From Clostridia bacterium (GTDB taxonomy: Bacteria > Bacillota > Clostridia > Christensenellales > Aristaeellaceae): a DNA stretch of 62,183 nucleotides. The position numbers were made by a program, and so were the translations under genes. Of the stretch, positions 7,189 to 62,183 are shown one piece after another. The stretch lies in the NCBI GenBank assembly GCA_017431005.1, contig JAFRLY010000058.1, positions 1 through 62,183 of the forward strand, written 5' to 3'. Numbering within the stretch: position 1 is the first letter of the stretch; every line of letters begins with the position of its first letter. The notes under the pieces are model-generated. The model did not search any database. It had not been told where the DNA came from and worked only from the letters and a program-made list of their open reading frames with translations.

Positions 7189-9177
7189 TCATCCTTCCGG
7201 AACCTGATAGATCCGTGCCTCTCCGTTTTCAAAAACCAGAGGATAATGCTCCGTCAGCTTTTCCTCATCCACCTGATAGTTTCCTCTTTCATAGGATGAA
7301 ACCAGAATATAATCCACGTCATACTTGCTCAGCACCCAGGCGTTCTTTTCCGGGTCGTTCATGAAAGCGCTGATATCCGTCTGGCGTTCTGAAGTGTCAA
7401 ACCCATGCCAGTAGAGCCACAGATCAGGCCCGCAGACAATTGTCCTTCCGCCGATGCTCAGCACCGGGTTCAGGTGCTGGGTCCCGGTTAAAAACACCGC
7501 ATCCTCCGGGGTATGATCCCGTGCGAATTCCCCGGCTTCCACCGATTCAGCGGAGAATGCAATATAATCTGATACAGTTTCACGCCACAGGGTCAGACCA
7601 GCGCTGAGGAAAACAGTCACTGCTGTCAGCCCCGCGATCACCGGCCTGGCACGCAGACCCTTCAGCCGCCGCCAGATCACGCCGGTCCATTCGGCAACAA
7701 TCATGCAGCACAGCAGCCATGCCAGATAGAACAGCTTGTTGTTGTCGTATTCATTCGGCTGAAACCGGATGAATTCCGCTGCCAGAATAATGGGAAGCGC
7801 CATCGCGAACAGCCTGCGCCACCTGGGATTTCGTTCCGGCAGTGCCAGCAGAAGCGCCAGAAAGGGCAGCCCGATGTTCTTCATATAGAACCAGCCGTAA
7901 AGATCCCGCATTCCCGCTCCCCTGGGATTGTTGACCCAGTTGAACTGGAATTTGAGAAAGCTGACGCCCTTTTCACCCTGAAAGGCCTGGGCAAAGGTGA
8001 ATCCGAAAAGCTGCGGCAGCGAAAGCGCAGCGGCAATCACGCCGTAAATCAGATAAGGCAGAAAGATTTTCCAACGGCTTCTGCGGCCCGGCGCTTCCCG
8101 GGGATCGCCGTGAATCATGTCATAGGTCAGCGCGCCGAGGGATGCGAGCGCCAGTGCCAGGAAGCTGTGCGTATGAATCAGAGGCAGCGACCCGGCCCAG
8201 ACTCCCAGCAGGCCGACAGCTCGGCCGCCTCCCAGCCGCGTCCTCTGCGCCGGGCGGAAGGCTGCGTCCAGCAGATACAGGCATGGAATGACCATACACC
8301 ATCCGCCAAGCAGCGTACGCTGAGGGATCATCAGATCCGCGATTACATTGGACCAGCGCAGATTGTTCGGATCCGGCTGATTTGTCGGTGTCTGATACCA
8401 GCCTTCCAGTATGTGCTGTATCCGTGCCAGGACTGTCAGCTCTCCGCTTGCCGTCCGGCCTCCTGCCAGATCAAAATCATACAGGAATCCAAGCCCGCCG
8501 TTCAGGAAAAAAAGCAAAGCCGCCAGCAGCATTGTCCGTTTTCCCGCAGTCATCTCTCTCCCCAGAACCAGCACGCCCAGATAGCACAGCGACATCATCA
8601 GCGTTGCAGGGATGACGGTCGCCGCCTGGAGCGGCGCACCCAACAGATAAAAGGAGGTGCTTAGGGAGTCTGTCAGGAAGGGATAGGACAGCCGGGTCCC
8701 GGGATAAAAAGGATAGTCCGCGGGAAAGGCTTTTCCTGCCAGTCCCGTAATAAAGCTCAGATGCATGGGCAGATCCCCGTAGGTACTCTGTCCTACCCGC
8801 CAGTTCCCGGCAAGGTCAATCCGCATTACATGCGTGTACTGCAGCCATCCGCTCAGCACAGTCAGCGGTATCACCAGCAGAAGAGCCTGGCGCAGAAACC
8901 GGCTTTCCGCTTCATCCCACGCAGCGGCGCTGCGCCGGTCCCGCAGCAGCCCGGCGGCTGCGGTCAGCAGCGCTGCGGCTCCCGCCGCTGCCAGATGGGC
9001 AGTTCGTGTAAAGGCGCTCACAAAGGCGGCCAGAGCCGGCAGCCACATTTCCATCAGCAGCCCGAGACACAGTCCAAGCCAGATCCGGTTCACCGGCCGG
9101 TGGCGCGGCAGCAGGAAACGCACGATCAGCAGGCCGCACGCCAGGTGGAAAATCATATATGCCAGGGAAGCGATCAT
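7189..9177 (-). CDS. GT-C-like polytopic membrane protein (ArnT/DUF2298-type)
   Basis: The 662-residue protein has about twelve or more hydrophobic segments spread over its first 500 residues and a soluble C-terminal part. The first large loop holds STYGDLPMHLSFI, with an Asp in the position used by GT-C glycosyltransferases, and FPADYPFYPGTRLSYPF. The tail HYPLVFENGEARIYQV is typical of large GT-C-like proteins. The likely role is transfer of a sugar from a lipid carrier outside the membrane; donor and acceptor are unknown. AAGGAG sits before the ATG. It follows whiA by 37 bp, so it may be the last gene of the murB-rapZ-whiA operon. Confidence 0.65.
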   Translation of the reverse strand: MIASLAYMIFHLACGLLIVRFLLPRHRPVNRIWLGLCLGLLMEMWLPALAAFVSAFTRTAHLAAAGAAALLTAAAGLLRDRRSAAAWDEAESRFLRQALLLVIPLTVLSGWLQYTHVMRIDLAGNWRVGQSTYGDLPMHLSFITGLAGKAFPADYPFYPGTRLSYPFLTDSLSTSFYLLGAPLQAATVIPATLMMSLCYLGVLVLGREMTAGKRTMLLAALLFFLNGGLGFLYDFDLAGGRTASGELTVLARIQHILEGWYQTPTNQPDPNNLRWSNVIADLMIPQRTLLGGWCMVIPCLYLLDAAFRPAQRTRLGGGRAVGLLGVWAGSLPLIHTHSFLALALASLGALTYDMIHGDPREAPGRRSRWKIFLPYLIYGVIAAALSLPQLFGFTFAQAFQGEKGVSFLKFQFNWVNNPRGAGMRDLYGWFYMKNIGLPFLALLLALPERNPRWRRLFAMALPIILAAEFIRFQPNEYDNNKLFYLAWLLCCMIVAEWTGVIWRRLKGLRARPVIAGLTAVTVFLSAGLTLWRETVSDYIAFSAESVEAGEFARDHTPEDAVFLTGTQHLNPVLSIGGRTIVCGPDLWLYWHGFDTSERQTDISAFMNDPEKNAWVLSKYDVDYILVSSYERGNYQVDEEKLTEHYPLVFENGEARIYQVPEG

Positions 9178-9214
9178 GGTTTCCGCTCCTTTCTGCGTCC
9201 GCCGCCGTATTCAG

Positions 9215-10180
9215 TCACTCTTCTTCCAGTCCGGCTGAGATGGCCATCAGCCGCCGCATCCGGTGGTTAATCCCGCTTTTGCCCACCGGAGGATCCATCT
9301 GCTCCCCCAGCTCCTGCAGACTCAGTTCCGGATGCTCCAGCCGCATCCTGGCTACCTGCTGCAGTGCCGGTGGCAGGGTGAACAGCCCGATCTTCAGTGA
9401 AATCCTTTTGATTGCTTCCATCTGTGCCAGGGATGCATCCAGAGCCTTCTCCCCGTTGTGCTCATCGCAGTTGGCAGCCCGGGCCACGCTGGCCCGCAGC
9501 TGTTTCCCGGCACGGATATTTTCCATGGTCAGAACACTCTGCGCCGCGCCCATTGCGGCAAGCATGTCGGAGATCTGCTGTGCCCCCTTCAGATAGACCA
9601 CTGTCTGGCCTTTCCGGGTATAGGTATGCCAGGGCAGCTCCGCCTTCTCCAGCAGCTTCCGCAGCGTATCCGGCAGCTGTTCATCTTCAGCTTTCCATTC
9701 AAAATGATAGCTTTTTTCCGGATTGCTGATGGTCCCGGTGCCGAGAAATGCCCCGCGGAAAAAAGCCTTCCGGCAGCAAAGCCGCGTCATCGGATGCCGG
9801 GGTACAGTTCGTCTGAAATGCATCTGCCCCTCTTCGTCGGTTTCTGTCATGTGCAGGGCATTCAGCAGTATTCCGGCATCCTCTCCTGACAATGTCAGAA
9901 CACAGGTGCGCCGTCCTCCCAGCTGAGGCGTCTGCACAAAGTGCAGCGTCGGACTTACGTTCAGGCGCCGTTTTAACAGCAAAAACAAACGCCGGGCTGC
10001 CCCGGCGTTATCCAGTCGATAGCTGACGGTGAATCCGCCGCGGCCGCGAAAGCCCAGATGTCCGGAGGTCTGGGTGAATGCCGCGATCTCACTGAGCATG
10101 CAGCAGGTTTTTCCCAGGGGCAGCCTGACCAGCTCCTCCTTCACCCTGGCGGAGAAGCTCTGCCCTTCCTCACGGCGCAT
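9215..10180 (-). CDS. whiA: DNA-binding protein WhiA
   Basis: The 321-residue length and content fit WhiA, a conserved Gram-positive protein tied to cell division, chromosome segregation and, in actinomycetes, sporulation. The N-terminal half is the degenerate LAGLIDADG-like domain (KEELVRL, SEIAAFTQTSGHLGF, FFRGAFLGTGTISNPEKSYHFE). The C-terminal helix-turn-helix includes LSLQELGEQMDPPVGKSG and HRMRRL. The ATG overlaps the rapZ stop (TGATG), so translation is coupled. The usual yvcK gene between rapZ and whiA is absent. Confidence 0.93.
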   Translation of the reverse strand: MRREEGQSFSARVKEELVRLPLGKTCCMLSEIAAFTQTSGHLGFRGRGGFTVSYRLDNAGAARRLFLLLKRRLNVSPTLHFVQTPQLGGRRTCVLTLSGEDAGILLNALHMTETDEEGQMHFRRTVPRHPMTRLCCRKAFFRGAFLGTGTISNPEKSYHFEWKAEDEQLPDTLRKLLEKAELPWHTYTRKGQTVVYLKGAQQISDMLAAMGAAQSVLTMENIRAGKQLRASVARAANCDEHNGEKALDASLAQMEAIKRISLKIGLFTLPPALQQVARMRLEHPELSLQELGEQMDPPVGKSGINHRMRRLMAISAGLEEE

Positions 10181-24399: not shown

Positions 24400-25452
24400 T
24401 TATAGCAAGTTGTTTTTCAGCCAGTCCATACCCTTCATCCGGATCTCCTCCAGGGAATATTGCTGCGTTTCCCTCAGGAAATGCTCCACCCGGCAGTTCT
24501 TGCTTTCCGGGTCTTCCTCCCGGTAGCGCTTCAGCGGCACCGTCCGGACACAAAAGATCGTCCCGAAAACAAGGCCGTGAAAGCTGTCTGTGCAGAGGCA
24601 AGCCGCATCCCGGATTGCCCGCAGAAAGCCCTCCGGTCCGATTCCGTCCAGCAGCGGATAACCGCTCTCATAGCTTTCCGCCGTCACAGGAATGACCCGC
24701 ACCGGCAGGCCGGTTTCCTTTTCGAGTTCCCGCACCCGCGCCCAGTAGTCCGGGTTCTCCCCGATAAAATAACAGACAAGGCTTTTCTGAGGACAGAGGG
24801 ACGGTTCTTTTGTCTTATCCGCCGCTTCGCTCCAGGCTTCCCGGCTCAGCAGGCAGACCGGATCCGGCAGCACGTCGGCTTCCCGTCCCGTGATTTCCCG
24901 CAGCAGCGCAGCGCCCTCTGCCTCCCGGGCGGAAAGCGCTTCAAAGCCTTCTGTCAGGCTTTTTATTTTTTTTCTTTTTCTTCTGTCCTTCAGCTCCCGT
25001 ACCCCCAGGCTCGGGGCATAGGCCAGCTTTTTCTGTCCCTTCTCCGCAAAATCCAGAAAGTAAGCCGGGTTCAGCCATACAGGGTTCCAGATCTGATCGC
25101 TTCCGCAGACCAGCAGGTCATAGCTTCCGCTGATTTTTTTCAGTTCCTGATGATTCCGGCAGACCGGGCTCAGCTTCATCTCCCGCTCATAAAACGCGGG
25201 AATCGCCCGGTTCTTGGCTCTGGCGCCGGCCTGTCCGGCCTGCACGCTCCGCTTCCGGATGCCTTCCAGAATCAGCTTCGGGCTGTTGCCGCTGATGATC
25301 AGATTCCGGATCTTCTCCGCCCTGTCCGGGCGGTAATCGATATGCTCCGCGTCGTATCCCATTTCCCGGATCACCCGCTGCAGGGCATAGGCCTGGAGGG
25401 AGGAGCCGTAGTTGTCGTTATGCAGAAAAGTCAGAATCCCGACTTTTTTCAT
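24400..25452 (-). CDS. Polysaccharide pyruvyl transferase family protein
   Basis: The 350-residue protein belongs to the PF04230 family (CsaB, WcaK), which adds ketal pyruvate to cell-wall or exopolysaccharide sugars. It begins VGILTFLHNDNYGSSLQAYAL and has VCGSDQIWNP plus CTDSFHGLVFG near the C terminus, all signatures. An in-frame GGGACGGTTC palindromic repeat encodes about eight residues (DKTKEPSLCPQK region, near residue 220). It comes after UDP-GlcNAc 2-epimerase with a 45-bp gap, consistent with a glycan-decoration operon. Confidence 0.9.
   Translation of the reverse strand: MKKVGILTFLHNDNYGSSLQAYALQRVIREMGYDAEHIDYRPDRAEKIRNLIISGNSPKLILEGIRKRSVQAGQAGARAKNRAIPAFYEREMKLSPVCRNHQELKKISGSYDLLVCGSDQIWNPVWLNPAYFLDFAEKGQKKLAYAPSLGVRELKDRRKRKKIKSLTEGFEALSAREAEGAALLREITGREADVLPDPVCLLSREAWSEAADKTKEPSLCPQKSLVCYFIGENPDYWARVRELEKETGLPVRVIPVTAESYESGYPLLDGIGPEGFLRAIRDAACLCTDSFHGLVFGTIFCVRTVPLKRYREEDPESKNCRVEHFLRETQQYSLEEIRMKGMDWLKNNLL
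24792..24814. repeat. GGGACGGTTC palindromic repeat inside a coding gene
   Basis: Arms GACA / TGTC surround the same GGGACGGTTC core found at 3849-3943. It is read in frame by the pyruvyl transferase gene. Confidence 0.65.
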
Positions 25453-25497
25453 CGTCTGTCTTTCCTCTCTCTCAGCTTTCAGTTCCTCTTTTGGATT

Positions 25498-26595
25498 TCA
25501 ATTCTTTTCCAGCAGGATATCCGCGATCCGTTCGCAGGCGTGCCCGTCCCCGTAGGGGTTCTCCGCGTGAGCCATGGCCTTATATGCTTCCGGGTCATCC
25601 AGCAGCCGGGTGAACTCTCCGTAAATGGTTTCCTCCCGGTTTCCGACAAGCTTCAGCGTTCCTGCCTCCACGCCCTCCGGCCTCTCCGTGGTGTTGCGCA
25701 TCACCAGCACCGGTTTCCCCAGGCTGGGCGCTTCCTCCTGAATGCCGCCGCTGTCGGTCAGAATCAGCTCGCTCCGCGCCATGATGTTATGGCAGTCCAG
25801 CACTTCCAGCGGCTCGATCAGCCGGATCCGGTCACAGCCGCTCAGCTCCGCCTCCGCGGCTGCCCGGACGACCGGGTTCATATGGATGGGATAGACGGCT
25901 TTCACGTCCGGATGCTCCTCCATAACCCGCCGGATAGCCCGGAACATGGCGTGCATCGGTTCACCCAGGTTTTCCCGGCGGTGGGCGGTCAGCAGTATCA
26001 GCCGGCTTCCCGCCGCCCAGTCCAGCACCGGATGGGTATAGTCTTCCCGCACCGTCGTCTTCAGTGCGTCAATCACCGTGTTGCCGGTCACGTAGATGGA
26101 CTCGGGCTTTTTCCCCTCCCGGATCAGGTTGTCCCGGCTCATGGCCGTTGGCGCGAAGTTCCAGGCAGCCACGATGGATACCGCCTGCCGGTTGAACTCC
26201 TCCGGGTACGGTGCCGTGATGTCGTAGGTCCGCAGACCGGCCTCCACATGCCCCACCGGAATACCCAGATAGAAGCAGGCCAGCGCGGCGGCGAAGGTGG
26301 TGCTGGTATCTCCGTGCACCAGCACCGCGTCCGGTCTTCTTTCCTCCAGCACGGTCTTCATCCCGGTCAGAACCCGGGTCGTGATATCAAACAGCGTCTG
26401 TCCGCTCTGCATGATATCCAGGTTTACATCGGGCTCCACGCTGAAGGCGTCCAGCACCTGCCGCAGCATATCCCGGTGCTGTCCGGTTACGCAGACGGTG
26501 ATTTCAGCGTCCCCGCGCTTTTTCAGTTCATTCACCAGCGGGCACATTTTGATGGCTTCAGGCCGGGTGCCGAAAACCAGCATGATTTTTTTCAT
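25498..26595 (-). CDS. wecB: UDP-N-acetylglucosamine 2-epimerase, non-hydrolysing
   Basis: This enzyme converts UDP-GlcNAc to UDP-ManNAc for teichoic-acid linkage units and capsules. The 365-residue protein has FGTRPEAIKMCPLV, VTGQHRDML, HVEAGLRTYD, LTAHRRENLG, and LTDSGGIQEEAPSLGKPVLVMR, all hallmarks. The name mnaA is also in use for Gram-positives. AGGGG lies 8 bases before the ATG. It follows pepF with a 27-bp gap, so the promoter may be shared. Confidence 0.96.
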   Translation of the reverse strand: MKKIMLVFGTRPEAIKMCPLVNELKKRGDAEITVCVTGQHRDMLRQVLDAFSVEPDVNLDIMQSGQTLFDITTRVLTGMKTVLEERRPDAVLVHGDTSTTFAAALACFYLGIPVGHVEAGLRTYDITAPYPEEFNRQAVSIVAAWNFAPTAMSRDNLIREGKKPESIYVTGNTVIDALKTTVREDYTHPVLDWAAGSRLILLTAHRRENLGEPMHAMFRAIRRVMEEHPDVKAVYPIHMNPVVRAAAEAELSGCDRIRLIEPLEVLDCHNIMARSELILTDSGGIQEEAPSLGKPVLVMRNTTERPEGVEAGTLKLVGNREETIYGEFTRLLDDPEAYKAMAHAENPYGDGHACERIADILLEKN

Positions 26596-26622
26596 GTTGT
26601 TTCCCCTGTCTGTTCTGCTGTT

Positions 26623-28413
26623 TCAGCAGACTGCTTCCTTCATCTTCTGTACGGTCTCTTTGAACACTTCCATCGCTTTCCGGACCGGTTCCGGAGAGGA
26701 CATGTCAATTCCCGCCAGCTTCAGCGCATCAATCGGCGGTACGCTGCAGCCGGCGCTCAGGAATTTCCGGTAGTTCCTGACGGCTTCCTCACCCTCGTTC
26801 AGGATCTTGTCGCTCAGCGTCACCGCGGCGCACAGGCCTGTAGCGTACACATATACATAGAATGCTCTGTAGAAATGCGGAATGCGCATCCACTCGGAGG
26901 CAATTTCCGGATCCATGAAGCAGGTCTCGCCGTAATAGGTTTCGTTCAGTTTGAAATAGGCTTCGGACAGGCTTTCCTTTGTCAGCGGAATACCCTGCTG
27001 CGCCATATCATGGCTGATCTTTTCAAATTCAGCAAACATCGTCTGGCGGAATACGGTGGTTCTGAACTGTTCCAGGAAGTGGTTCAGCAGGAAGGCCTGC
27101 GCCTTGGGCTCCCGGAAGGTTTCCATCAGATAGCGCTGCATCACGGCTTCGTTGCAGGTGGAAGCCACCTCCGCCACAAACAGGCTGTAGTCGCTCTTGG
27201 GAGCAGGCTGGTTTGTATTGCTGTAGAAGGAATGCATGCTGTGGCCCAGCTCATGCGCGATAGTAAAAGCGCTGTCCAGGTTGTCGTTATGGTTCAGCAG
27301 CACATAGGGATGCACCTTCCGCAGGCCGCCGGAAGAGAAAGCGCCGCTGGACTTCCCTGCGCTGGGATACACGTCGATCCATCCGCCGTCCCGTGCCTCC
27401 CGCAGCTTTGCCAGATAGTCCTCGCCCATGGGCTTCAGGCCCTGCAGCACCAGTTCAAACGCTTCATCATAGGGCAGCTTCATTTCGAAGTCGGATACGA
27501 TCGGCGTATACAGGTCATACAGGTGCAGCTCCTCCAGGTTCAGCAGCTGTTTCCGCAAGCGCAGATAATCCTGCAGCACCGGCAGATACTCATGCACCAC
27601 TTCGATCAGGTTGTCATACACGCTTTCCGGAATCTCCAGGGGCTTCATGGCCGCCTGCCTCGCGCTGTCGAAGTGATGGGCATCCGCCTGGAACTGGTCA
27701 TTCTTCACGCTGGCGCCGTAGGTGGCGGCAATCGTGTTGCCGAACTTTTCATAGGTGGAAAGCAGATTATGGAACGCCTGGCGGCGTACATCCCGGTCCC
27801 TTCCGTGAATGAAGGTGGAATAATTGCCTTCCGTCAGTTCCTGTTCGGACCCGTCCGCAAGGATGATCGGCGGAAGCTTCATGTCCGCCTCGCTCAGGGC
27901 GGTAAAAATGTCGTCCGGCGCTCCGGATACCTCGCCCATCATGGCAATCAGCCGTTCCTGCTCCTTGGGCAGCGTATGCGGCTTGGACAGCAGAATCGTC
28001 CGCAGGAAGGCGTCGTAATCCTTCATGTCCGGATCCGCCTGCAGCGCTTCCAGTTGTTCTGTCGGCATCTCCAGCAGCTCCGGCTGCAGAAATGCGCCGG
28101 CAGTCTGCGCTTTGACGATCAGCTGAATGCTTTTGCCCTTGAGTCCCTGTGCCACAGGATCGGCGTTGTCCGTTTCCTTCCGCAGAAAAGCATATTCGAA
28201 TACCGGCATAATCTCTTCCGAAATCTCAAAGAAGGTCCGGATTGCCCCTTTGGGGTCCTCCGCCACTTTTCCGTCAAAGGCGCTGATCCTGTCAATTTCG
28301 CCCATTGCCTTGTCAAAAGCCTTTTCCCAGGCTGCGTCATTCTGGAAAATGTGGCTCAGATTCCACTTGTACTTCGCGTCGATTTCATTCCGTTTTCTGA
28401 GCTGTTCAGCCAT
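26623..28413 (-). CDS. pepF: Oligoendopeptidase F
   Basis: A cytoplasmic M3B zinc metallopeptidase of 596 residues that cuts oligopeptides of about 7-17 residues. The zinc motif HEXXH is in AHELGHSMHS (about residue 387), with the third ligand Glu in SLFVAEVASTCNEA downstream. The last third, with YVYVYATGLCAA and FLSAGCSVPPIDALKLAGID, is typical. AAGGAG is 9 bases before the ATG. It is 25 bp downstream of topB. Confidence 0.95.
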   Translation of the reverse strand: MAEQLRKRNEIDAKYKWNLSHIFQNDAAWEKAFDKAMGEIDRISAFDGKVAEDPKGAIRTFFEISEEIMPVFEYAFLRKETDNADPVAQGLKGKSIQLIVKAQTAGAFLQPELLEMPTEQLEALQADPDMKDYDAFLRTILLSKPHTLPKEQERLIAMMGEVSGAPDDIFTALSEADMKLPPIILADGSEQELTEGNYSTFIHGRDRDVRRQAFHNLLSTYEKFGNTIAATYGASVKNDQFQADAHHFDSARQAAMKPLEIPESVYDNLIEVVHEYLPVLQDYLRLRKQLLNLEELHLYDLYTPIVSDFEMKLPYDEAFELVLQGLKPMGEDYLAKLREARDGGWIDVYPSAGKSSGAFSSGGLRKVHPYVLLNHNDNLDSAFTIAHELGHSMHSFYSNTNQPAPKSDYSLFVAEVASTCNEAVMQRYLMETFREPKAQAFLLNHFLEQFRTTVFRQTMFAEFEKISHDMAQQGIPLTKESLSEAYFKLNETYYGETCFMDPEIASEWMRIPHFYRAFYVYVYATGLCAAVTLSDKILNEGEEAVRNYRKFLSAGCSVPPIDALKLAGIDMSSPEPVRKAMEVFKETVQKMKEAVC

Positions 28414-28438
28414 CGTCTGTTTCTCCTTTTGTTATTTT

Positions 28439-30613
28439 TTATTTTTTCTGGTAGATCAGCGATCTTTTTACTGACGGAACCTCACTCCCGTTCGGGAAGA
28501 ACAGAATATTGCCTTCCTGAAGCATCAGCGTCCCCGTCGATCCCTTCAGCTGCCGTTTTTCAAGCAGCAGCTTCAGCAGCCTCGCGTCAACGGCCGGGCC
28601 TCCGCCCCGGGTCAGGCAGTCCTTCCACAGGGTGCAGCTGCACTTCTCCTCCGTGCAGTTGAATGCCCTCGGGCTTTCCCGCATCTGACCTTTTCCGCAG
28701 AGGGGACAGACTGTTCCCTCAATGATGCTTCCGCTCCCTGCGGTGTTCCGTCCGCCCCGCTTATAGCTTTTCCGCTTCGGATCCTCCGGAAACTGAATCG
28801 CCTTTGCCTCGTTTCTGGCATAGTCCACCAGGAACGCGCTCATTTTCCGTATTCCCGCCATAAAGCGGGCGGCATCCTGCTTTCCGTCCGTAATCTCGTG
28901 CAGCGCCAGTTCCCATTTCCCGGTCATTTCCGGGCTGGCAATCTCCTGCGGCATGATTTCAATCAGCCCGACGCCCTTGTCCGTTGCCTGCAGGGTCTTT
29001 CCCCTGCGCTGGGCGTATCCTACCTGCAGCAGCCGCTCGATGATGGCCGCACGCGTGGCCGGGGTTCCGATACCGCTGCCCTTCATCTGCCGGGCCAGCT
29101 CCTCGTCGTCCAGATCCCGGCCTGCGGTTTCCATGGAGGCCAGCAGGCTGGCATCCGTGTGCGGTGGCGGCGGTTTGGTCATATCCTCTCTGACCGCGGT
29201 GTCCCGGACAGTCCGGGTGTCCCCAACCTGCAGCGGCGGAAGCGCGCCTTCCTCCTCATCGTCCTTCCGGACGGATTTCCGCGTCCTCGGAGGGTTTTCC
29301 AGCACCGGTACGTCGTGCCAGCCGTTCACCAGCACCTGCCTTCCGGTAGTCCGGAACCTGTGATCACCCGCGCGGGTGATCACCTTTGTCGCGTCATATT
29401 CGCAGGCGGGATAGAACGCCGCCAGCATTCTCCGCGCCACCAGGTCATACAGCTGCCGCTCGTCCTCGCTGAATTCCGCCGGGTTGACCCTCTTGGCCGT
29501 CGGCAGGATTGCGTGATGATCCGTCACCTTACTTGCGTCAATCGTACGCTTCGTCACCGGGATTTTCCCTCCCGGCATGGCGCCGGGCACCAGCTTCTGA
29601 TAGCTTTCCGGCAGCAGCTTCATCGTCTGCGCAACCCGGGGAATCATGTCCGGAGGCAGGTACCGGCTGTCCGTTCTCGGATAGGTCAGCGCCTTGTGTT
29701 TTTCATACAGGCTCTGGGCAAGCTTCAGCGTTTTGTCAGCCGTAAAGCCCAGCAGCTTATTGGCTTCCCGCTGCAGGCTCGTCAGATCGAACAGCTGGGG
29801 CGGCAGCTCCTTCCTGCGGTTCGTTTCCGCCTGTTCCACAACCGCGCTCTTCCCTTTTACCTCCGCCGCGATGCGGTCCGCCTCCTGCTTTTCCTTCAGG
29901 TGGGTATCGGGGTCCAGCTTCTCATCGAACCAGATGCCCTTATAGTCCCCAAAGTCCGCCGTCAGCGTGCAGAAGCCTTCCGGTTTGAAGTTTTCAATTT
30001 CCTTCCGCCGTTTCACCAGGATGGCCAGCGTCGGCGTCTGCACCCGTCCCACGCTCAGCAGCGTGTCGTATTTCAGGGTGAAGGCCCGGCTGGCGTTCAT
30101 GCCGACCAGCCAGTCCGCCTGGCTGCGGCACTGGGCGCTGGCGTACAGTCCCTCGTAATCCGAGCCCGGACGGATGCTCCGGAATCCTTCCGTAATGGCT
30201 TCATCCGTCATGGAGGAAATCCACAGCCTGCTGAACGGCTTTTTACATCCGGCTTTCTCGTAAATATAACGAAAGATCAGCTCACCCTCGCGCCCGGCGT
30301 CCGTGGCACAGATCAGTGAGTCGGTCTCCTTGTCGTTGATCAGTTTTTTAACAATGCTGAATTGCTTTTTGGTGGCTGAAATGACCTTCAGCGGAATGCT
30401 TTCCGGCAGAATCGGCAGCGTTTCAAAACTCCATTTTTTCAGCTTTTCGTCCATTTCATCCGGCTCTGCCAGGGTCACCAGATGTCCCACAGCCCAGGTC
30501 ACGGTATACGGATCCCCGATCAGGCATCCCTCGCCCCGGGTTTTGCAGTTAAGTACGCGGGCAATATCCCGGCCTACGCTGGGTTTTTCCGCCAGCACCA
30601 CAATCCTGCCCAT
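28439..30613 (-). CDS. topB: DNA topoisomerase III
   Basis: A type IA topoisomerase of 724 residues that decatenates and unlinks single-stranded DNA. The TOPRIM domain has LAEKPSVGRDIARVL and ATDAGREGELI. The catalytic tyrosine lies in TYPRTDSRYLP. LSVGRVQTPTLAI is the gate-domain motif. The C-terminal end has a four-cysteine zinc-finger-like module (CPLCGKG, then CTEEKCSC) rather than the multiple fingers of TopA. TopB of this size is often chromosomal but is also carried by integrative elements; no other element genes are nearby. Confidence 0.94.
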   Translation of the reverse strand: MGRIVVLAEKPSVGRDIARVLNCKTRGEGCLIGDPYTVTWAVGHLVTLAEPDEMDEKLKKWSFETLPILPESIPLKVISATKKQFSIVKKLINDKETDSLICATDAGREGELIFRYIYEKAGCKKPFSRLWISSMTDEAITEGFRSIRPGSDYEGLYASAQCRSQADWLVGMNASRAFTLKYDTLLSVGRVQTPTLAILVKRRKEIENFKPEGFCTLTADFGDYKGIWFDEKLDPDTHLKEKQEADRIAAEVKGKSAVVEQAETNRRKELPPQLFDLTSLQREANKLLGFTADKTLKLAQSLYEKHKALTYPRTDSRYLPPDMIPRVAQTMKLLPESYQKLVPGAMPGGKIPVTKRTIDASKVTDHHAILPTAKRVNPAEFSEDERQLYDLVARRMLAAFYPACEYDATKVITRAGDHRFRTTGRQVLVNGWHDVPVLENPPRTRKSVRKDDEEEGALPPLQVGDTRTVRDTAVREDMTKPPPPHTDASLLASMETAGRDLDDEELARQMKGSGIGTPATRAAIIERLLQVGYAQRRGKTLQATDKGVGLIEIMPQEIASPEMTGKWELALHEITDGKQDAARFMAGIRKMSAFLVDYARNEAKAIQFPEDPKRKSYKRGGRNTAGSGSIIEGTVCPLCGKGQMRESPRAFNCTEEKCSCTLWKDCLTRGGGPAVDARLLKLLLEKRQLKGSTGTLMLQEGNILFFPNGSEVPSVKRSLIYQKK

Positions 30614-50979: not shown

Positions 50980-51996
50980 ATGGCAACTTTGAAGGATATT
51001 GCCCGGGAAGCCGGCGTCAGCATCACGACCGTTTCCAACGTGGTGCATGACCGCCAGAGCCGTGTTTCTCCCGAGCTCATTGAAAAAATCCGGACGATCC
51101 TGGATCGTGAACACTATGTGCCCAGCATGTCTGCCCGTTCCCTGACCAATGAGCATTCCTCAATCATCGGGGTCATCACCCACCTCACGCCTCAGAATAC
51201 CGGCAGCACCATGAGCGATCCGTTCCTCTCCTCCTTTGTGGACTCCATTGAGCGCCACACCCGGAAGGAAGGGTATTACATTATGATCCGCTCCGTTGAA
51301 ACCGCAGCGGAGCTGGATGCTCTGACCCGCAGCTGGAGTCTCGCCGGTCTGGTACTTACCGGTATGTTCCAGGACGATTTCTTCGAAGCGACCCGGAACC
51401 TCGGCATTCCCTTCGTGCTCATCGACAGCTATGTAGATCAGCCGGACGTCTGCAGCGTCGGTCTGGAGGATGAAGAGGGCGGTTATCTTGCTGCCCGCCA
51501 TCTGCTGGAAAACGGACACCGCGTTGTCGCCTTCGCCTCCCCCTCCATCCGTCCCGGCGGAGTCATTGATCAGCGCCTGCGGGGCTACCGGCGGGCACTG
51601 GCTGAGTATGGTGTTCCCTTTGATCCCTCTCTGGTCTTTACCCAGGAAATCACGCCGGAGGAGGGCATAGCCCTGGGCCGCCGCCTGGCTGCCCGTCCGG
51701 AAATCACCGGTATTTTCGCCTCTGCGGATCTGCTGGCCGCCGGCATCATGGCCGGCCTGAGCGCATGCGGCGTCCGTGTTCCGCAGGATAAATCCGTCAT
51801 CGGCTTTGATGACAATTATCTTGCCCGCCTCACGGTTCCGCCGCTGACCACAATTCACCAGGATGCGGATCAGAAAGGCCGGCTGGCCACGGAAATGATC
51901 CTGGCCCAGCTGCGTCATGAGCAGATGGAGCATCCGCGCATCGTGCTCCCGGTTCAGCTGGTTGCCCGCGGCACCGTACGCAATCTTGCCGAATAA
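50980..51996 (+). CDS. LacI-family transcriptional regulator
   Basis: The 338-residue protein has an N-terminal LacI helix-turn-helix (TLKDIAREAGVSITTVSNVVHD, read here as two helices, then a hinge helix near PSMSARSLTN) and a periplasmic-binding-like effector domain (IIGVITHL, RPGGVIDQRLRGYRRAL, FASADLLAAGIMAGL, DKSVIGFDDNYLARL). It is flanked by genes with matching palindromic operators and is the best candidate to bind GTTTAACGTTAAAC. The effector is probably a sugar from the pathway. GGAG is 9 bases before the ATG. Confidence 0.93.
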   Translation: MATLKDIAREAGVSITTVSNVVHDRQSRVSPELIEKIRTILDREHYVPSMSARSLTNEHSSIIGVITHLTPQNTGSTMSDPFLSSFVDSIERHTRKEGYYIMIRSVETAAELDALTRSWSLAGLVLTGMFQDDFFEATRNLGIPFVLIDSYVDQPDVCSVGLEDEEGGYLAARHLLENGHRVVAFASPSIRPGGVIDQRLRGYRRALAEYGVPFDPSLVFTQEITPEEGIALGRRLAARPEITGIFASADLLAAGIMAGLSACGVRVPQDKSVIGFDDNYLARLTVPPLTTIHQDADQKGRLATEMILAQLRHEQMEHPRIVLPVQLVARGTVRNLAE

Positions 51997-54365: not shown

Positions 54366-54531
54366 TCATCCTTTAATACCGACAGATACCGCATTCTCGG
54401 TTAATTGCTCATTCCATCTTCTGGTTTTGCCGCGCAGCGGCAAAAACATTATTCCTTGATTACAACAGAAACAGCATTCTCAGTCAGCTGCTCATTTCTT
54501 CTTCTGTTTTTGCCGCGCAGCGGCAAAAACA
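54366..54531 (-). repeat. Two 83-bp hairpin-plus-tail units repeating the permease C terminus
   Basis: Units at 54366-54448 and 54449-54531 each contain, on the minus strand, a hairpin (TTTTTGCCGC / GCGGCAAAAA, 3-nt loop) and then a frame encoding EQLTENAVSV(G/V)IK(G/E) and a stop. The working permease, which starts right after them, ends KQLTENAVSVGIKG. Compared with the permease, the unit nearest the GH65 gene keeps 13 residues from Gln to Gly identical while 10 of 13 codons differ synonymously. No start codon or ribosome site serves the units. Confidence 0.85.
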
Positions 54532-55401
54532 TTATCCCTTTATTCCTACGGAAACAGCATTCTCAGTCAGCTGCTTCTGGAAGATAAAGAACAGCACGAT
54601 CGGCGGAATCATGGAAAACACCACCGACCGCATCATCGTATCCGCATTGACTGTCTGTTCCGTGCTGAACACGAACAGTCTGACCATAACGGTCTGCAGC
54701 TGCCCGCCCCGCAGCACCAGGTACGGCAGCAGAAAGTCGGACCATGCCGCGTTGACCGCGAAAATCGCGATAACCGCACAGATCGGTTTGCTCAGCGGCA
54801 GCACAATCCGGAAGAAGATCTGCAGCTGGCTGCACCCGTCAATCCGGCTGGCCTCAATAATGGATCCCGGCAGCGATTCAAAAAACTGCACAAACAGGAT
54901 CACGTACATCGCGTTCGCCCCGTAGCTCAGCCACAGCGGCAAAAAGGAATTCCCCAGATGCAGGTTCTGAATATTCATGAACAGCGGCACAATGCTGATC
55001 GTCGTCGGCATCAGCAGGGAGATCATCACCAGCCGCTTTACCGCCAGATGCCCCTTCGGCTTCAGAATCCCGATCCCGTATCCCAGCAGGCCGTTGAAAA
55101 TCAGCGCGCAGATCACGCTGCCCACCACAAAAATCAGGGAATTCAGGTAGTTCTGGGAGATACCCAGCTGGTTCCAGGTAGTGATGAACGGTTCCGCGCT
55201 GAAGGATTCGGGCAGCAGCGAGGTGCTGGACATGAATTCCTTCAGATCCTTGAAACCTGCCAGCACCACCCAGATCAGCGGGAACACCGCCAGCACCACC
55301 ATCAGTGCGCAGCACAGCAGAATAAACCCGTATCCGGCCTTTACCGAAGCGGAGTGCATATCGTATTCCCGGATGACACCGGTGCGCTGAACGCTTTTCA
55401 T
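54532..55401 (-). CDS. Carbohydrate ABC transporter permease (MalG-like)
   Basis: The 289-residue protein has six membrane helices and the EAA loop EASRIDGCSQLQIFFRIVLP that docks with the ATPase. NAAWSDFLLPYLVL and the tail FQKQLTENAVSVGIKG are typical for the MalG/LplC group. GAGAGGAGAG precedes the ATG. It is 15 bp downstream of the MalF-like gene. The ATPase (MsmX-type) is not in the window and is presumably shared, as usual in Firmicutes. Confidence 0.93.
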   Translation of the reverse strand: MKSVQRTGVIREYDMHSASVKAGYGFILLCCALMVVLAVFPLIWVVLAGFKDLKEFMSSTSLLPESFSAEPFITTWNQLGISQNYLNSLIFVVGSVICALIFNGLLGYGIGILKPKGHLAVKRLVMISLLMPTTISIVPLFMNIQNLHLGNSFLPLWLSYGANAMYVILFVQFFESLPGSIIEASRIDGCSQLQIFFRIVLPLSKPICAVIAIFAVNAAWSDFLLPYLVLRGGQLQTVMVRLFVFSTEQTVNADTMMRSVVFSMIPPIVLFFIFQKQLTENAVSVGIKG

Positions 55402-60011: not shown

Positions 60012-62183
60012 TTACTCAAGGCAATCGCCCACGTTGATGTACACGATGCCGAGGCCCAGAGGCGTCTCCTCCTCTTCAATGATGGGGTTCCGCGGCGGTA
60101 CATTGTTACGGGTGTTTGTAATGGTGGTCGTGTTTCCGTTGGTCACAATGCTGGTCTGTGTATATCCGGCGATGGCCGGCTCACTCCAGGTGTAGGTGAT
60201 CACGCGTCCGTTGGGATCAGTCTTCGGCAGGTTCGGAACAGATGCTGTCCAGTTGTTGGCTGCTGTCAGAGTGATGAACCGGGCCTGTCCGCCGCCTGTC
60301 AGGGTGACAATCAGGCTTGCGGGACGTCCGCCGACTCTGTTGCCATCCGCCCACACCTTCACGACTGTCAGCGTGATACCGGCTTCAGTGGGATCTTCCA
60401 CCTCATCGTCATCTTCCACAGGATCTTCATTCGGATCCTTGGCTGTGACCGTAGCCTTGTTGGTAACCTTTCCTGCCAGTGTGTCAGCTTCCTTCACGAT
60501 GTAGCTTGTGGTGAACACTTCCAGGGTGACACCGGCATCCAGTTTGCTGATTGTCCAGTGTCCTCCGGTCAGCGGGTCATCCACAACGATATCATGCAGC
60601 GTCACGTTACCGGTATTGGTTACCGTCAGGTCATAGGTGATTTCCTCACCCAGCACATAGGCTGTTCCATTGGCAGGTGTGCTGGTTGTGGTCTTGATAA
60701 TTTCGATAGCAGGCTCGCCTACATACTCGTTGGTGAAGTTGACATCCGTTACATCCGCTACCAGTTTACCTTCACGATTGTCAGTAATGACAACTGTTAC
60801 AATCTTACCGGTCAAAGCTTCAGCATCCATCTGCCAGCCGTCGCCAAACTCAGCGGTCGTTGTCTCAATTACCTTGTAGTAGTGTGTTCCGGGCTCCTTG
60901 TAGGTGATCTTGCCGAAGTCGATGTTCTTGACACCCGCTTCAGTGAAGTTCAGCGTCCCGTAGACGAGTACTGCGTCTTCCAGTGCCGTGCCCTTCTCAT
61001 CCGCCACTTCAGTCATGGTGAAATCGAAGGTCTTTGCCGGGAAGGCGGTCTTGCTGACAACGGTCTTTGTGGAGAACTTCACTGAAGTATCCAGTTTCAG
61101 TTCTTCCACGGAGTAGGTGTTCGTGAAGGTCAGCGGATTCTCGTTTGTGCTTGTTACAGTGTAGGTCAGCGTGCCATCCTTGGCATCCTTAACCTCTACG
61201 GTAACGGTCTTGCCGCTGGTTGCTTCTCCATCGTTGGTCACGCCGGCGATGGTACCGGTCTCTGTCACCGTATAGGTGTAGGTTCCGGGTACTGTGTAGC
61301 TGAACGGTCCGAAGGTTGCAGTATCTGCGGTATTATCCACAGACCCGGTCATGGTTTCAGCTGCAGGAGCACCATCCATTGCCTCAACGGTAATGTCATA
61401 GGTCCAGGTGGCCGGCCCTTCCAGGTTCTCAGGTACACTCAGGATCTTCTTCACCGGGAAGTTTGCTTCCGTAGGCTCAACACTGTAGGTGTTGGTGAAG
61501 GTTACAGGATTCTCTTCACTGTATTCTGTTACCGTCGCTTCCAGTTTGCCTTCTTTGTTGTCGATGACTGTGACATACACTACCTTGCCGTCCTCTGCGG
61601 CCGGATCATTCTCGACACCGCTGATATCGCCGGTCTCTTTTACCGTGTATGTGTACTGTCCGGGCATCGTGAAGGTGAACGGTCCGAAGCTCGTCGCCGG
61701 AGTATCATTATTGATTTCCTTCGCCATCTCATCGGCTGCCGGTGATCCATTCTCCGCGGTAACGCCGATTGTGTAGCTCCAGCTCTCCGGTCCTGTCAGA
61801 CCCTGCGGTACTACCATCGTCTTCTCTACCGGGAAGCTGGCTCCTGCAGGTTCTGCGCTGTAAGTGTTTGTGAAGGTTACAGGATTCTCTTCACTGTATT
61901 CTGTCACCGTCGCTTCCAGTTTGCCTTCTTTGTTGTCGATGACTGTGACATACACTACCTTGCCGTCCTTTGCGGCCGGATCATTCTCGACACCGCTGAT
62001 ATCACCGGTCTCTTTTACCGTGTATGTGTACTGTCCGGGCATCGTGAAGGTGAACGGTCCGAAGCTCGTCGCCGGAGTATCATTATTGATTTCCTTCGCC
62101 ATCTCATCGGCTGCCGGTGATCCATCCTCCGCGGTAACGCCGATTGTGTAGCTCCAGCTCTCCGGTCCTGTCAGACCCTGCGG
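60012..62183 (-). CDS. Repeat-containing surface protein (FctA/Spy0128-like and Cna-B domains), 5' end outside window
   Basis: The frame is open to the right edge, giving 723 residues of C-terminal part. Four isopeptide-forming pilin-like domains come first (about 1-105, 106-230, 231-340, 341-465). The first three show PVEK or PVKK-type Lys, a KETGD or TETGT Glu, and a final FTNTYS Asn; the fourth is diverged. A DUF11/DUF7507-like domain (about 470-585, ITYDLTVTNTGNVTLHDIVV) and a Cna-B-like domain (about 590-690, LTVVKVWADGN) follow. The end, PLGLGIVYINVGDCLE, has no LPXTG motif or membrane helix, so anchoring is unexplained. Confidence 0.85.
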   Translation of the reverse strand, partial: PQGLTGPESWSYTIGVTAEDGSPAADEMAKEINNDTPATSFGPFTFTMPGQYTYTVKETGDISGVENDPAAKDGKVVYVTVIDNKEGKLEATVTEYSEENPVTFTNTYSAEPAGASFPVEKTMVVPQGLTGPESWSYTIGVTAENGSPAADEMAKEINNDTPATSFGPFTFTMPGQYTYTVKETGDISGVENDPAAEDGKVVYVTVIDNKEGKLEATVTEYSEENPVTFTNTYSVEPTEANFPVKKILSVPENLEGPATWTYDITVEAMDGAPAAETMTGSVDNTADTATFGPFSYTVPGTYTYTVTETGTIAGVTNDGEATSGKTVTVEVKDAKDGTLTYTVTSTNENPLTFTNTYSVEELKLDTSVKFSTKTVVSKTAFPAKTFDFTMTEVADEKGTALEDAVLVYGTLNFTEAGVKNIDFGKITYKEPGTHYYKVIETTTAEFGDGWQMDAEALTGKIVTVVITDNREGKLVADVTDVNFTNEYVGEPAIEIIKTTTSTPANGTAYVLGEEITYDLTVTNTGNVTLHDIVVDDPLTGGHWTISKLDAGVTLEVFTTSYIVKEADTLAGKVTNKATVTAKDPNEDPVEDDDEVEDPTEAGITLTVVKVWADGNRVGGRPASLIVTLTGGGQARFITLTAANNWTASVPNLPKTDPNGRVITYTWSEPAIAGYTQTSIVTNGNTTTITNTRNNVPPRNPIIEEEETPLGLGIVYINVGDCLE
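61486..62183. repeat. 375-bp near-identical tandem repeats in the surface-protein gene
   Basis: 61486-61808 and 61861-62183 differ at about seven positions over 323 bp and have a 375-bp (125-codon) period. The array continues past the right edge. Such repeats allow length change by recombination and are prone to assembly collapse. Confidence 0.88.

Follow-up and report, generated by a model that had tools for sequence, protein, structure and literature searches.

Why should a permease gene be followed by further copies of its own end, spelled in other codons? This question is raised by a sugar ABC import operon in the stretch of 62,183 nucleotides analysed here (the window; contig JAFRLY010000058.1 of the Clostridia bacterium assembly GCA_017431005.1). 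On its minus strand, a MalG-like permease gene is followed by two 83-bp units and then by a GH65 family gene (Table 1), just as a first-pass annotation of the same DNA had placed the units. The frames of the permease and of the GH65 protein are both unbroken on either side of the array, and the GH65 spacer with the Shine-Dalgarno-like sequence AGGGGGAG lies directly 3' of the last tail copy.

Table 1. Operon setting and parts of the tail array (positions are those of the window)
Feature	Position	Strand	Basis
Sugar ABC import operon		-	Pfam search
Solute-binding protein	57834-56404	-	Pfam
First permease of the operon	56325-55417	-	Pfam
MalG-like sugar ABC permease, 289 aa, end ...FIFQKQLTENAVSVGIKG + TAA	54532..55401	-	ORF; PF00528, E 3.4e-13; 51 orthologous loci
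83-bp unit 1: tail copy 1, stop, hairpin, 16-nt joint	54491..54573	-	
Tail copy 1 (the permease's own end)	54573-54532	-	
Proximal hairpin, perfect, 12-bp stem, 3-nt loop	54505..54531	-	
ORF1, 27 codons, MFLPLRGKNRRRNEQLTENAVSVVIKE, start overlapping the permease stop (TAATG)	54449..54532	-	
83-bp unit 2: tail copy 2 (QLTENAVSVVIKE), stop, hairpin, 16-nt joint	54408..54490	-	
Tail copy 2	54490-54449	-	
Distal hairpin, 11 of 12 pairs	54422..54448	-	
ORF2, 27 codons, MFLPLRGKTRRWNEQLTENAVSVGIKG, start overlapping the ORF1 stop (TAATG)	54366..54449	-	
Tail copy 3, QLTENAVSVGIKG + TGA	54366..54407	-	
GH65 family gene, 764 aa	52056..54350	-	PF03632, E 2.3e-116
LacI-type regulator	50980-51996	opposite strand to the operon	Pfam

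Elsewhere, the window contains two Pfam-negative ORFs of coding-like base composition (1400 residues at 24460-28662 and 473 residues at 28898-30319, both on the plus strand) and a surface-protein-like ORF of 696 residues (60012-62102, minus strand) with four FctA (Spy0128-like isopeptide) stretches and a Cna_B domain.

The units had been described as a perfect hairpin each, followed by a frame for the tail. Hairpin and tail frame are both present, but only the proximal hairpin is perfect, one pair being mismatched in the distal one (92% paired), and each unit turns out to be a complete 27-codon ORF with an ATG of its own, which reads through the hairpin. The hairpin DNA thereby encodes a leader, MFLPLRGK. 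Both ORFs are linked to the preceding frame by TAATG, which accounts for the period of 83 bp, since 28 codons (84 bp) lose the one base common to stop and start; the view that the units are no in-frame extension of the gene is supported. ORF1 and ORF2 are the only ORFs on the coding strand of the insert.

The C terminus of the permease reads FIFQK-QLTENAVSVGIKG, and these last 13 residues are encoded by copy 1 as well as by copy 3. As the annotation had noticed, 10 of the 13 codons differ between the two; this amounts to 11 of 39 nucleotides, all of them changed synonymously. The peptide was preserved in none of 400,000 simulated sets of 11 random changes, so that the identity of copies 1 and 3 is not due to chance. 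Synonymous divergence under protein constraint implies a minimum of two permease-like coding histories, and the earlier idea of a tail kept by selection on protein in a separate gene holds in this sense. Copy 2 ends in ...VIKE instead of GIKG: two changes have hit the conserved end, both glycines are gone, and the first of the changed sites is occupied by glycine in 50 of the 51 orthologue tails. Between units 1 and 2 there are differences at 8 of 83 sites, the first 23 nucleotides of copies 1 and 2 being identical.

We give about an even chance to the explanation that the array is the scar of a gene-end replacement, a foreign gene end having been joined by one-sided or illegitimate recombination. 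The foreign DNA would have comprised the 3' end of the orthologous permease gene of a divergent relative together with the start of the donor's next sequence (TAATG and 14 hairpin-forming codons). It would have been joined into the permease gene between the K and the Q codon, where the incoming, synonymously different tail would keep the protein intact, and the native tail (copy 3) would have been pushed downstream, to a place beside the GH65 gene. The 83-bp unit may later have been duplicated, the two copies drifting thereafter. The anatomy, the synonymous identity of the tails and the lack of the insert in the relatives examined are observed; donor, direction of replacement, type of recombination, later duplication and functionless extra copies are what we infer in this scheme.

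One indication comes from the junction. In copy 1 and in the orthologues inspected the tail is preceded by Q-K (or Q-R) codons, whereas copies 2 and 3 are preceded by ...AATGAG, which puts the upstream junction at the K|Q boundary. On the simplest reading of this junction and of the GH65 spacer that abuts copy 3, copy 3 is probably the displaced native gene end and copy 1 with its leader came from outside. The replacement is further supported by comparison with 210 pairs of orthologue tails that share one peptide: these show 5.8 nucleotide differences on average and at most 9 differing codons, a maximum that the 10 codons between copies 1 and 3 exceed. The loss of both glycines from copy 2 is as expected for a later duplicate that was free to drift.

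Several observations do not fit as well. Two units with the same boundaries require an extra duplication. In addition, third positions are unusually AT-rich in both tails, with G or C in 5 of 13 (copy 1) and 4 of 13 (copy 3), as compared with 6-13 in the 40 orthologues whose gene body has a GC3 of at least 0.7; by the same measure, a count of at most 5 is seen in 3.3% of 307 long ORFs of the same genome, and a count of at most 4 in 1.0%. Along the permease gene, GC3 starts at 0.65 in the first 20 codons, runs at 0.75-0.90 thereafter and falls to 0.20 over the final 9 codons and the stop. The third positions of copy 3, if it is native, should resemble the gene body (GC3 0.81), and their AT-richness is unexplained. 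The tail of the nearest relative differs at 8 nucleotides from copy 3 and at 6 from copy 1. As copy 3 is AT-rich and no closer to the relatives, we infer rather than observe which tail is native. The joint itself has about 2-4 nucleotides possibly in common at ..AG|CA.., depending on the donor sequence, where homology-facilitated illegitimate recombination (HFIR) calls for 3-10 bp. No donor was identified in the family, order, phage, plasmid or viral sets searched, and a donor boundary was not seen within the permease body, where the best orthologue identity was 0.81, 0.84, 0.83 and 0.90 in four segments, followed by 0.86 in the tail.

A single scan of species genomes yielded 51 orthologous permease loci, none of which carries a second tail, although the downstream DNA amounts to only about 50 nt in one (L022) and about 400 nt in another (L015). 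The array is thus, as far as seen, an insertion private to its source genome; the annotation had named units identical in all relatives as a refutation, and the units were not found in relatives. The GH65 start, for which the in-frame start codon closest to an N-terminal motif on its upstream side was used, was located in 48 of the 51 loci. Its distance from the permease stop is 3-68 nt in 43 of them and 124-296 nt in five (L021, L029, L030, L059 and L063), some of whose spacers contain inverted or locally repeated stretches. These long and unlike spacers suggest that the spot after the permease tolerates insertions. When the long spacers, including that of L015, were compared, none matched another of them or any other locus, and four of the six had weak matches inside their own locus.

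What such insertions must spare is indicated by work on the tail itself. The tail of MalG is inserted along the interface of the MalK dimer, where its four terminal residues touch the Q loops; AraQ without its last four residues increased the doubling time almost 5-fold, a destabilisation of the protein not being excluded by the authors (PMC5730181). Given that a MalG-type tail docks into the ATPase, only insertions that restore the tail survive: an insertion in the last codons without such restoration would probably be lost, and a surviving insertion that brings its own tail is what selection would naturally produce.

The annotation had also considered recombination between paralogous transporter operons with a common hairpin. 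This origin found no support, as the hairpin, with up to 2 mismatches allowed, matched nowhere else in the genome, the other permeases of the genome were only 24-31% identical among the matches listed, and the 20-nt tail pattern, although found at 10 places with at most 1 mismatch (control 1), was exact only at the three copies, the seven 1-mismatch places not being permease ends. As far as the genome was searched for the hairpin and for EQLTENAVSV tails, neither a tail in a paralogue nor a further hairpin was thus obtained, two outcomes that the annotation had counted as refuting. A store of exchangeable permease tails likewise found no support, since the copies encode the same tail and the one that differs, copy 2, is altered from GIKG to VIKE.

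In the family, BLAST with the whole insert recovered orthologue permease tails, present in all of the 19 best non-own loci (L095-L113), besides many short low-scoring matches. No credible match to the hairpin or to the 14-codon leader was found in 307 other family genomes, where the hairpin gave two weak 2-mismatch matches and the leader a best E value of 0.17. In an order-level sample of 396 genomes, 27 including the own one match the insert at E 0.01 or better, all matches except the own one being short, and no credible hairpin or leader match was found in this sample, from which 7 loci were inspected. Five genomes of another family gave matches to copy 2 (query 53-79), which were taken as a coincidence, the three that were inspected (L140, L147 and L149) being one and the same stretch without a permease end. 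Plasmid sets gave no match, viral contigs none by exact pattern (tail and joint patterns included), and phages one weak DNA match (E 0.7) and none by protein.

To look for other re-encoded gene tails, ORFs were called mechanically on both strands and the similarity of tails was expressed as a fraction of the self-score, with reversed tails as control. In the window and loci L006-L116, where 1154 of 1160 ORFs were scored and L064, L094 and L114 are repeats of the window, the window reached 0.94, followed by 0.56, the control maximum being 0.47. In detail, for 400 kb of the own genome 896 ORFs gave a best value of 0.52 against 0.57 in the control, and for a further 525,668 bases 1112 ORFs gave 0.78 and then 0.60, with a control of 0.65. 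The case at 0.78, on contig C20, is not a re-encoded tail but a tandem array of whole precursor-like genes, which shows that the scan is able to detect duplications. Apart from this whole-gene family, no further re-encoded tail was found in the 925,668 bases scanned outside the window (about 31% of the genome); the remainder was covered by pattern or peptide search only. The C20 array (L171, G000:C20:1-20000, reverse strand, about 9038-9950 of the reverse complement) consists of three small genes in tandem whose N-terminal leaders are nearly identical and end in a GG motif and whose tails differ; a further frame starting MKYEHISLVLTDRCN lies downstream of them. Presumably it is of the kind of a RiPP precursor array with a radical-SAM-like maturase.

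Known classes of such structures were considered for the hairpins. As RNA the fold is stable, at -17.4 kcal/mol (z -4.37) for the proximal and -13.1 kcal/mol (z -2.47) for the distal hairpin. An intrinsic terminator was rejected, as the T run is on the 5' side and the A run 3' of the loop, GAAG comes after the stem, and a terminator scan did not report the hairpin. Rfam gave a single match, to a snoRNA model from eukaryotes, with an E of 0.59 and 21.1 bits where the gathering score is 37; it was judged to be due to chance. A dispersed REP- or MITE-like repeat was rejected too, the genome containing the two local copies only at up to 2 mismatches. The core of integron attC sites is GTTRRRY, which the hairpin ends GTTTTTG/CAAAAAC do not fit, and no integrase was found in the window; no feature supported a cassette array.

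There are, however, several known systems in which a gene receives a new end and the old one is left behind. HFIR is proposed for arrays of orphan immunity genes and Rhs tips (PMC5361080), where, as in the present scheme, a new gene end is joined by means of upstream homology, the old end is left downstream, and repetition of the process can build an array. One-sided recombination and duplications of gene parts are likewise described for E. coli conjugation, with HFIR inserts of about 1 kb (PMC3240628). In contrast, the copies studied here carry the same tail peptide, hence no new specificity, measure 2 x 83 bp and have a donor that was not found. A further parallel is given by the hybrid genes of fungal mitochondria (atp6, atp9, cox2 and nad3 of Glomus, atp6 of Allomyces), where a foreign C-terminus stands in frame and the native one is displaced downstream; the two ends of Glomus atp6 are alike in 63.5% of their DNA but 91% of their protein letters, the differences being mostly silent (PMC3630166). 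The present case is bacterial, has no endonuclease ORF and carries a 41-nt hairpin/leader in place of the mobile ORF. Two features of that type, an in-frame tail and silent differences, are present; the junction would make copy 1 the foreign and copy 3 the native tail. Prophage e14 in icd, finally, supplies a substitute 3' end while the displaced duplicate remains (PMC6379469); here no prophage, integrase or common attachment core was demonstrated, and the copies lie 83 bp apart. With endonuclease or integrase and donor missing, the scar would work like these parallels and be a member of none. Our literature searches found nothing on short-patch double illegitimate recombination or on bacterial gene hybrids.

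The array is a singleton from one assembly that is incomplete and probably metagenomic (85% complete, 63 contigs; most relatives are labelled MAG or uncultured, from which the same status is deduced for this genome). An assembly artefact, in which co-occurring strains with one unit or none were concatenated, has to be considered for this reason, the more so as the first 23 nucleotides of copies 1 and 2 are identical and palindromes trouble assemblers. We think it unlikely, as hairpin and chimeric joints would still have to come from real DNA, the assembly separates three distinct tails as well as two distinct hairpins, and the permease and GH65 frames are intact on both sides.

A tiny mobile element might instead have inserted into the 3' end of the permease gene, healing it with its own recoded tail, and have done so twice at one site. 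Both units have the same boundaries, the hairpin position is constant, the recoded tail restores the permease, and the layout of new tail, insert and old tail is that of the fungal hybrids and of e14 mentioned above. On the other hand, none of the 48 predicted ORFs of the window, 10 of which are Pfam-negative, matches an integrase or transposase family at E 0.001, a second copy was found neither in the own genome, by hairpin search and by tail scans of 0.93 Mb, nor credibly in the family, the exact tail and joint patterns are unmatched in viral contigs, and 83 bp is far below the size of known elements. We consider such an element unlikely. A site-specific integrative element fares no better: recombinase families are absent from the same 48 ORFs at that threshold, the insert is too small to encode one, and no att core was demonstrated.

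The open frames suggest a different kind of explanation, namely that they are translated. Ribosomes leaving the permease gene would re-initiate at TAATG and make ORF1 and ORF2, which we regard as improbable. On the same terms, and with equally little confidence, ORF2, whose short basic leader is followed by the ATPase-docking tail in its intact form (...GIKG), would compete with permeases for a shared MalK/MsmX-type ATPase and so tune transport. The overlap of both starts with the preceding stops is what this requires, as in translational coupling at TAATG, from which the locus would differ in that the products are putative 27-residue peptides repeating the tail of the upstream protein. Copy 3 has retained 13 of 13 residues despite 10 changed codons, as expected if it is still coding, and the permease tail is the ATPase-docking part, as PMC5730181 indicates. 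An ATPase gene is absent among the identified proteins of the operon, and the genome contains 132 matches to BPD_transp_1 (all ABC importer types, not only sugars) against three to the MalK-type OB domain, so that sharing of ATPases is likely; the counts suggest that it is heavy among the sugar importers.

Several points argue against it, however. ORF1 has lost the docking motif (VIKE), the differences between the two leaders are all replacements and none is silent, and the spacing from the Shine-Dalgarno-like AAGGG/AAGGA to the ORF starts is short. In the window and the sampled part of the genome, 35 of 829 long coding-like ORFs have a stop that overlaps an ATG, and in 14 of the 829, the present locus included, the overlapping start opens a frame of 20-99 codons. 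The overlap alone is thus modest evidence for translation of the ORFs, and TAATG linkage with open 27-codon frames is only mildly unexpected for a blind scar. In addition, no combination of leader and tail was found outside the locus. A search with the 27-residue peptide gave matches in 64 of 308 family genomes at E values of up to 10, the best of those elsewhere covering residues 13-27 and thus permease tails, and those touching the leader being no better than E 0.17; a full-length homologue was not found in the 307 other family genomes. ORF1 had no NCBIfam match, and ORF2 matched only permease tails and chance-level sequences outside the locus, with nothing in NCBIfam or in phage protein and plasmid searches. 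The bolder version, in which the operon has evolved a self-encoded tail mimic from its own gene end and the ORF2 microprotein competes for or primes the few MalK/MsmX-type ATPases common to many sugar importers, we consider very unlikely. Neither the tail mimic nor the tail-restoring mini-element has any independent support yet.

Least probable is a long-lived array whose copies swap places by repeat recombination, all under protein selection, since copy 2 is damaged at conserved residues, no array occurs among the relatives examined and exchange would homogenise rather than diversify the copies, even though every copy is near the peptide while silent sites differ.

If the array is the scar of a gene-end replacement, it would be a clean and small bacterial example of a gene end exchanged for a foreign, synonymous one while the old end stays where it was, as is already on record for fungal mitochondria and for the targets of prophages. 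Such a scar would also illustrate how a short docking tail filters which insertions survive. Should the mini-ORFs be made after all, they would represent a new mode of regulating transporters with a common ATPase.
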